Of a DNA stretch of 64,000 nt, positions 29,066 through 42,383 are shown one piece after another. Origin of the DNA: Variibacter gotjawalensis (GTDB lineage: Bacteria > Pseudomonadota > Alphaproteobacteria > Rhizobiales > Xanthobacteraceae). Numbering within the stretch: the stretch's first letter is position 1; every line of letters starts with the position of its first letter. The position numbers and the translations under genes were made by a program. The stretch lies in NCBI RefSeq assembly GCF_002355335.1, contig NZ_AP014946.1:3983501-4047500 (forward strand). Direction: 5' to 3'. A model generated the notes under the pieces. It was not told the DNA's origin and ran no database searches. It worked only from the letters and a program-made list of their open reading frames with translations.

Positions 29066-29093
29066 CGGCGGAACTTCGCAGCGTGCGCGCTCC

Positions 29094-29208
29094 TTCTCCC
29101 GCTTGCGGGAGAGGGTCGGGGTGAGGGCAAGCGGCAGATTCGGAGATCGAAACTTCCCCTCACCCGGCTCGCGTTGCTCGCCACCCTCTCCCGCAAGCGG
29201 GAGAGGGA
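29094..29208. repeat. REP-like element, family C (empty form)
   Basis: CTCCCGCTTGCGGGAGAGGGT ... GGGGTGAGGG, about 30 bases, CCCTCACCC ... ACCCTCTCCCGCAAGCGGGAG. The same two arms flank the DUF559 gene at 41946-42383. It lies between the convergent ends of livM and the thiolase. Confidence 0.87.
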
Positions 29209-41849: not shown

Positions 41850-41917
41850 CCCTCACCCGTCTCGCGGTTCGCTTCGCGAACAACGCTCGCCACCCTCTCC
41901 CGTGAACGGGAGAGGGA
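41850..41917. repeat. REP-like half element, family C
   Basis: CCCCTCACCCGTCTCGCGG ... ACCCTCTCCCGTGAACGGGAGAGGG. It matches the right-hand arm of the other family C elements, with a changed loop. Directly follows the small membrane protein stop. Confidence 0.8.
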
Positions 41918-41939: not shown

Positions 41940-42314
41940 TTAGACTCCCTCTCCCGCTTGCGGGAGAGGGTTGGGGTGAGGGCAAATCGCTTGCTCGAGC
42001 GTTAGCCAAACGCCCTCTCGATTTGACAAAACGTCATTGTTCCAAAATCGGATAATGTGCCAGCCTTCCGCCCGCAGGTAAGTATCGCGCCGCGCGTCGG
42101 AAGCACTGTTGGCGTGGTGCCCGCCGTCAACTTCGATGATGAGCTTTCGACAGATACACGCAAAATCTGCAACGAATGGCCCAATTGGAACTTGCCGCCG
42201 AAACTTGATCCCGGCGAACCGGCGATCCCGCAGCATCCACCACAAGCGGCGTTCCGCCTCCGTGCTATCGCGGCGTAGCGATCGTGCCGAATCCCGTTTC
42301 TGCCCGTTAAGCAT
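41940..42314 (-). CDS. DUF559 endonuclease-like protein
   Basis: 124 residues. The fold is of the very-short-patch-repair/restriction type: TEAERRLWWMLRDRRFAGIKFRRQVPIG (in parts), then ADFACICRKLIIEVDGGHH with the metal-binding Asp/Glu, and IRFWNNDVLSNREGV. Start ATG 42314 abuts one family C repeat arm, and the last ~13 residues (PHPNPLPQAGEGV) are encoded by the other arm, so the gene fills the gap of the repeat. The frame open to 42413 passes through the arm. No clear ribosome site. Confidence 0.82.
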   Translation of the reverse strand: MLNGQKRDSARSLRRDSTEAERRLWWMLRDRRFAGIKFRRQVPIGPFVADFACICRKLIIEVDGGHHANSASDARRDTYLRAEGWHIIRFWNNDVLSNREGVWLTLEQAICPHPNPLPQAGEGV

Positions 42315-42383
42315 TCCCTCACCCGGCTCGCGGTTCGCTTCGCGAACAAAGCTCGCCACCCTCTCCCGCAAGCGGGAGAGGGA
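41946..42383. mobile_element. DUF559 gene enclosed by 26-bp perfect inverted repeats of REP family C
   Basis: TCCCTCTCCCGCTTGCGGGA... (41946-41971) and its exact complement (42358-42383) bracket the DUF559 gene. Inside the ends are GGGTGAGGG and CCCTCACCC. The same arm pair with only ~30 bases between occurs at 29094-29208. No clear target duplication or transposase is seen, so mobility is hypothetical. Confidence 0.45.

Follow-up and report, generated by a model that had tools for sequence, protein, structure and literature searches.

A DUF559 gene between inverted hairpin arms in Variibacter gotjawalensis: a probable, so far undescribed type of mobile element in many proteobacteria

RAYTs are usually single-copy, are each associated with one repeat family and persist vertically. 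To our knowledge, there is no dedicated mobilising enzyme for the CCCTCTCCC-type repeats. In the REPIN/RAYT systems, as described in the parts of PMC3116915, PMC8266576 and PMC3733652 cited here, the repeats are paired and the gene is flanked by the same repeats. The cited part of PMC3733652 further defines the GTAG and CGTC tags at the foot of REP hairpins and says that the CGTC REPs, a large alphaproteobacterial class, lack a dedicated transposase. Intergenic repeats of rhizobia are named RIME in the cited part of PMC2573895.

DUF559 is a widespread protein family with an unsettled role. The E. coli DUF559 protein of the NCBI model presumably bears the name YcjD, the homing endonuclease I-Bth0305I belongs to the EDxHD family, and we know of no flanking arms as part of the Vsr system. 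An E. coli DUF559 protein is listed as a member of the PD-(D/E)XK nucleases with a profile link to Vsr (PMC1189080, cited part). According to the cited part of PMC12907096, the authors regard the Caulobacter DUF559 protein VsrA as a mismatch-repair enzyme, which is needed for the SOS response upon deletion of a solitary methyltransferase. Among the matches listed in a search of the open literature, to which preprints and most subscription papers did not belong, no link between DUF559 and repeats was found, and none of the papers containing the word DUF559 concerned repeats by its title or the start of its abstract.

We analyzed a locus of V. gotjawalensis that we judge quite probable to be one copy of a minimal mobile element composed of a hairpin arm, a DUF559 gene and an inverted hairpin arm.

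The window locus and related repeats in the V. gotjawalensis genome

The window is the whole stretch of DNA analyzed here, 64,000 nucleotides in length (bases 3983501-4047500 of the genome, which is a single contig of 4.59 Mb). Its features are given below with their positions in the window.

29092 to 29207, no strand assigned: gene-less (empty) element of the window arm family, with the left arm at 29092-29127, a 29-base spacer and the right arm at 29157-29207
41850 to 41916, no strand assigned: extra solitary arm of the same family, with the hairpin variant GTGAAC, outside the left arm
41940 to 42313, minus strand: DUF559 (PF04480) nuclease gene, with a likely ATG at 42313-42311 and the stop at 41942-41940
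41946 to 41982, plus strand: left arm, with the hairpin CCCTCTCCCGC-TT-GCGGGAGAGGG and the gene-facing tail GGGTGAGGG
42316 to 42383, minus strand: right arm, with the hairpin of the left arm, an inner hairpin and the tail GGGTGAGGG

An earlier note on this DNA had described a perfect 26-base inverted repeat around the gene, and the arms are indeed exact, 41946-41971 recurring as its reverse complement at 42358-42383. As the 26-mer is itself a hairpin palindrome, its inversion alone says little, and the evidence for the arm pair rests on pairing and spacing. The tail of the right arm ends two bases ahead of the likely ATG and the final ~13 codons of the gene (PHPNPLPQAGEGV) fall within the left arm, in agreement with the same note, which had the start codon abutting one arm and the last codons lying in the other. 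The copy that the note mentions with a gap of ~30 bases corresponds to the gene-less element listed above, and the view that the filled locus is the same element with a nuclease gene added is supported.

Predicted DNA folds are in favour of hairpins for both arms of the window locus (left arm, 41946-41984, -12.1 kcal/mol, z -3.4; arms of the empty copy, z -1.3 and -2.2), the longer right arm being predicted instead to pair its outer strand with the tail in an alternative fold (z -2.6). Neither GTAG nor CGTC occurs on either strand of the window arms (41946-41982 and 42316-42383). A single CGTC lies, by chance, within the extra arm, which makes the order of the locus extra arm, left arm, gene and right arm; further arms beside the flanking ones were also seen at other loci, such as L022 and L073. 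The purine tail GGGTGAGGG immediately precedes the start codon at many loci, including the window locus (42311-42324), and could serve as a ribosome-binding sequence. In the window gene, Pfam gave only DUF559-type matches (PF04480 domain at 41994-42299, E 3.7e-36); when four other frames of the unit were examined, no match exceeded a curated cut-off. The search for a clean empty counterpart of the window locus had no success: close homologues of the MFS gene in two genomes (G167 and G177) have no element downstream, but the genes that follow them differ.

With up to 2 mismatches allowed, the genome contains 41 copies of the 20-base palindrome of the window family, against 2 of the reversed pattern. 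Of the 40 distances between neighbouring copies, 17 measure 54-113 bp, and the only ones between 121 and 3000 bp are 412 bp, which is the window DUF559 locus, and 2344 bp. A scan with the whole-arm pattern yielded 14 pairs of arms that lie within 3 kb of each other with their tails facing inward. The inner gap measures 20-59 bp in 13 of them and 369 bp in the remaining pair, where it contains another DUF559 gene (L003). The window pair, with an inner gap of ~330 bp, was missed by this pattern because its right arm is longer.

Six PF04480 genes were found in the genome, and five of them lie between inverted arms (four called by score; L005, with a score of 13.5, by eye), each with an arm pair from its own repeat family. 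Sorting by eye assigned gene-less arms at other genomic places to the families of L002, L003, L004 and L005, and for that of L001 only look-alikes were recognized. The sixth gene (L006; G000:C1:2361955-2365269) has no arms, and its DUF559 domain ends a 399-residue frame, which we take to be RNA methyltransferase-like. Frames of ~400 residues with weak DUF559 matches were observed in other genomes as well. The PF01797 (Y1 transposase) profile had no match in the whole genome, 5 of 14 control genomes being positive.

The DUF559 protein and the distribution of armed loci

The structure model of the DUF559 domain (pLDDT 88) matched best the DUF559 protein NGO0050 (3hrl; Z 15.3). The next characterised fold was that of I-Bth0305I, a homing endonuclease (Z 11.5, with an rmsd of 2.2 across 85 residues), and Vsr (1cw0) followed with a Z of 9.4, ranked after some mitoribosomal proteins of similar Z; rows of this comparison (VIA-align) below Z 8 were left out as evidence. 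In a 16-row alignment D45, E56, D58 and H62 are kept, and D45, E56 and D58, presumably the catalytic residues, are invariant. On this modelling the window protein is a probable, putative nuclease of the Vsr/I-Bth0305I type. A dN/dS of 0.044-0.194 in all but one of 15 pairs shows that the nuclease is under purifying selection. No ratio could be obtained for L278/L294; dS is saturated (above 1) in four of the 14 other pairs, one pair (L030/L060) has no arms, and the frame of L061 is interrupted by a stop. Among the 188 domains as delimited in this study, 5 contain a stop or a break of the frame.

The presence of arms was assessed by aligning the upstream flank of each gene to the reverse complement of the downstream flank, with a score cut-off of 15.5. 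In the order sample, matching inverted arms were found at 78 of 108 DUF559 loci, which are a part of the order's DUF559 matches, and none of 354 shifted-window controls exceeded the cut-off (the controls derive from the first 89 loci, the 19 later ones having none of their own). Before this count, L013, L032 and L034 (contig edges), L036, L044, L050 and L056 (duplicates) and L233 (a duplicate of L028) were left out. Among named relatives examined in a pattern scan, 48 of 79 loci had arms against 1 of 431 controls; L306 (contig edge) was left out of this count, and at least three of the loci overlap with the order sample (L236, L289 and L296 being the same places as L022, L008 and L014, respectively). 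The armed loci of the named relatives belong to Rhizobiales, Sphingomonadales, Rhodospirillales, an Asaia MAG, Nitrosovibrio, Nitrosomonadales and Gallionella MAGs, Luteimonas and Lysobacter tabacisoli; one armed SAR202 Chloroflexi locus was found on a single MAG contig. In the phylum sample, comprising the best-scoring loci of 398 genomes, arms were found at 14 of 27 loci (1/5 at the level of order, 4/6 of class and 9/16 of phylum) against 3 of 107 controls, which were noisier here. DUF559 matches themselves were detected in 145 of the 398 phylum genomes and 69 of the 150 order genomes. The search for armed DUF559 genes suggested in the earlier note thus succeeded both in this genome (five of six) and in the order (78/108).

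At 40 of 74 armed loci (L048, L049, L061, L071 and L235 left out beforehand), the open reading frame extends into the downstream arm by over 15 bases. We considered a conserved C-terminal tail encoded by the arm and rejected this idea, as the downstream arm is read in only that number of loci.

As 30 of the 108 order loci and 31 of the 79 named loci are armless by score, there are also DUF559 genes of an ordinary kind. Arms are absent from all five enterobacterial loci that were examined and from most loci of Xanthomonas, Stenotrophomonas and Lysobacter (Xanthomonadaceae outside Luteimonas), and, among the matches listed, several armless loci of Xanthomonadaceae are syntenic with one another and with the armed L279 and L314. 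According to the earlier note, homologues without arms, or a lack of filled and empty sites at matching places, would count against an element; neither objection holds, although 30 of the order homologues are armless by score. It may be supposed that the window gene is an ordinary repair or defence nuclease whose neighbourhood attracts repeats by chance. The armless syntenic genes, the purifying selection and the role of a DUF559 protein in the Caulobacter SOS response (PMC12907096, cited part) would fit this explanation. Nevertheless, arms that lie on both sides, are inverted, match in family and move with the gene are unlike a chance neighbourhood, and we regard the explanation as very improbable.

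At least five empty pairs were detected in 20 of the 52 order genomes with DUF559 (E <= 1e-20) and in 3 of the 98 others (P 2.7e-8), whereas Y1 had no clear link to empty pairs in the same 150 genomes (P 0.06 for at least 5 pairs, 0.48 for at least 10 pairs, and 0.53 in a third test), all of these associations being raw genome counts that ignore phylogeny and G+C. The reversed arm pattern in this order-wide scan is the outer hairpin itself and so provides no control. We rejected a RAYT as the mobiliser on the grounds that the genome has no Y1 match and that the order shows no clear association. The tie to RAYT drawn in the earlier note is therefore not upheld: the genome has no match to Y1, empty pairs track DUF559 and not clearly Y1, and the window arms have no GTAG.

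Alternatively, another enzyme may mobilise the repeats, and the DUF559 gene may have been captured and carried as a passenger. The repeats do outnumber the genes, and 2 of the 17 genomes with at least 10 empty pairs have no strong DUF559 match. However, this genome lacks a Y1 match, Y1 is not clearly linked to empty pairs, and the DUF559 pairs at 412 bp and 369 bp were found by the repeat pattern alone (the 2344-bp spacing being left aside). Furthermore, many distinct arm families, each with DUF559, occur in Alpha-, Beta- and Gammaproteobacteria and in one Chloroflexi MAG. A passenger thus appears unlikely.

Movement of the arms and the gene

In one genome, L027 and L057 are arm-gene-arm units of 499 bp that are 93.6% identical to each other and have unrelated flanks. 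Homology confined to the element, with unshared flanks, was likewise found for L048/L079, L069/L070, L038/L041 and L003/L035, and mostly so for L064/L065. Judged from these alignments, the arms and the gene demonstrably travel as one unit. The earlier note had offered a REP-mobilising unit or a passenger; movement as a unit holds for L027/L057, the tie to RAYT was lost, and the passenger is now less likely.

The gap between glyQ and glyS is 574 bp with an element here and 6 bp in three family relatives, which have no arms at all at this place. DUF559 was found in 7 of the 55 resolved glyQ-glyS intervals (one, in G129, being a weak match in a longer frame), while 21 of 76 glyQ loci had no glyS anchor. 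Within single genera, intervals of 83 bp versus 585 and 919 bp, of 502 versus 1201 bp, and of 459 bp with an arm remnant versus 1006 bp were found. Elements recur at the junctions of tRNA-synthetase subunit genes, pheS-pheT (as we recognized it from the L003 sequence) and glyQ-glyS, in several families. On plasmids, only arm fragments of 50-55 query bases were found, at 3 places in 2 records.

A classical insertion sequence would have a DDE, serine or HUH transposase and a target-site duplication. Pfam gave for the window unit the DUF559-type matches described above, and as to the target duplications for which the earlier note proposed a test, no consistent one was seen by eye in the unit copies, at glyQ-glyS or at the Mesorhizobium site described below. 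The gene-less element L319 (G232), which belongs to a different arm family, has its flanking AGTA returning on the other side as TACT, which is inverted and not direct.

The site in Mesorhizobium was searched for in 81 genomes; 50 loci were examined, 39 were classified by eye, and at the remaining 11 the left and right queries fell on one place. Mesorhizobium atlanticum and M. sp. WSM3859 have the arm-gene-arm form, and M. hawassense has at the same place two arms with a short spacer. The filled and empty sites at matching places anticipated by the earlier note therefore exist. The 39 loci comprise 9 filled ones, 2 with both arms only, 17 with only 4-23 bp, 2 with a single or degraded arm, 1 with arms split by an insertion of ~1 kb, 5 with gene-less elements of other arm families, 1 with a lone hairpin of another family and 2 with an unrelated insert of ~240 bp. 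In the M. hawassense spacer, some 40 bases have no clear alignment to the filled form, and the clean filled/empty pair is compatible with either direction of change. The inner hairpin of the left arm matches the right arm in the filled copies and not in the two empty ones (L331 being shown in part). An insertion of ~90 bases is present in both arms of the filled L331 (G276), and a similar one in a single arm of the empty L318 (G252), which suggests that one arm may have been copied onto the other. M. atlanticum and M. sp. WSM3859 (L305 and L292) have two DUF559 elements separated by ~1.07 kb; at this place in M. hawassense (L309), one element is filled and the other is empty.

These sites bear on a further alternative, in which the arm pairs are older, independent repeats, and DUF559 is a free-standing homing gene that cuts empty pairs and homes into their spacer. 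The nearest characterised fold after 3hrl is that of I-Bth0305I, both arms are common to the filled and the empty form of one Mesorhizobium site, the match of the inner hairpins is confined to the filled copies, as conversion would leave it, and a lone arm occupies the place of L057 in the sister genome. In contrast, the three family relatives without arms at glyQ-glyS indicate that arms and gene can be absent together, and 13 of the 14 arm pairs found by pattern in this genome stay empty. The protein and the arm family also tend to be inherited together: among non-syntenic loci in different genomes, similar proteins go with similar arms (r 0.233 for 2884 pairs, reached in 0 of 2000 permutations; this test replaced a protein tree that had too few columns and was mostly unresolved). 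A DUF559 lineage thus tends to stay with an arm family of its own, in the manner of RAYTs and their REPs. When armed loci of the same genome were compared in pairs, the score between their arms was below 20 in 63 of 71 cases. A second filled copy within an arm family is accordingly rare, which sits poorly with vigorous homing. Altogether, homing is favoured by the homing-type fold and the filled/empty pair, and unit copying by the joint absence of arms and gene at glyQ-glyS and the co-inheritance of protein and arms. We consider a free-standing homing gene to be a real possibility, albeit not the outcome we expect, and proceed with the arms and the gene as a single element.

Arm structure, proposed mechanism and comparison with known systems

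The arms, which we presume RIME to resemble, could be parsed as a pyrimidine/purine hairpin with a tail in 211 cases from 115 loci. Within the tail of most arms lies a mirror repeat of the purine strand of the hairpin, with T or A allowed opposite A. In 150 unique arms, the mirror match averaged 0.899 against 0.719 in permuted arms (z 15.4) and was perfect over 8 bases in 113 arms. With the same code, a direct-repeat relation gave a z of 6.4 and 63 perfect arms, and inversion a z of 2.1. The direct-repeat reading, which corresponds to the alternative pairing, fits less well than the mirror, yet the predicted fold of the window right arm uses it. Among the 91 arms of 54 loci in which both classes could be named, all 40 stems ending in GAAGG have GGATGAGGG tails and all 51 stems ending in GAGG(G) have GGGTGAGGG tails, a covariation whose P value overstates the evidence as the loci are related. 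G.GC, A.AT and T.AT are the triplets of the antiparallel purine triplex. From this triplet set, the mirror repeat and the covariation, which such a structure would require, we infer that the tail may fold back on the hairpin as a triplex. The tails might also form G-quadruplexes.

In the mechanism we propose, an element of ~0.45-0.6 kb travels with its arms and gene as one unit, and gene-less derivatives, made of two arms and a short spacer, form small populations in the same genome. The Vsr/I-Bth0305I-type nuclease would recognize the folded form of its own arms, namely the hairpin and the mirror-repeat tail, possibly as a fold-back triplex, and cut or nick there. The element might then spread when the whole unit is copied, or the gene might enter empty arm pairs by copying in a homing-like way. 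Movement as a unit, the filled, empty and absent states, the co-inheritance of protein and arms, purifying selection and the mirror covariation were established by sequence comparison; action of the nuclease on its own arms is what we infer from them.

A bolder reading is that this is a new class of autonomous elements, among the smallest known (0.5 kb with one PD-(D/E)XK nuclease of ~110 residues), in which the nuclease recognizes the hairpin-triplex of the arm, drives its own movement and that of arm-only copies, and explains a large share of the CCCTCTCCC-type repeats of proteobacteria. We put this forward tentatively, at somewhat short of an even chance. The link between DUF559 and the repeats gives each of them a testable explanation, extends the REPIN-like lifestyle to a second, unrelated type of enzyme, and leads to a clear prediction about structure, the mirror-repeat tail on the hairpin.

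With regard to the known systems, Vsr shares the fold with the window protein and the Caulobacter protein VsrA has a DUF559 domain (PMC12907096, cited part), but Vsr is a repair enzyme. RIME and the CGTC-type REPs are, like the arms studied here, palindromic intergenic repeats of Alphaproteobacteria, although the window arms carry no CGTC tag at the foot of the hairpin. The I-Bth0305I/Vsr-like homing endonucleases are similar in the catalytic fold and in having filled and empty sites. In contrast to I-Bth0305I homing, no intron or intein was seen around the DUF559 gene, the majority of the arm pairs of this genome are empty, and recognition of the arms is presumptive. The likeness to REPIN/RAYT lies in the paired inverted hairpins that occur as short units and in the gene flanked by the same repeats, both of which were found here. 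In contrast to REPIN/RAYT, the enzyme is a PD-(D/E)XK/Vsr-type nuclease and not a Y1 HUH transposase, the Y1 protein required there has no match in this genome, the foot of the window hairpins has neither GTAG nor CGTC, and the tail of the arm is a mirror repeat of the stem. Thus, the best reading is that of an element REPIN-like in organisation, in which a Vsr-type nuclease takes the place of RAYT.
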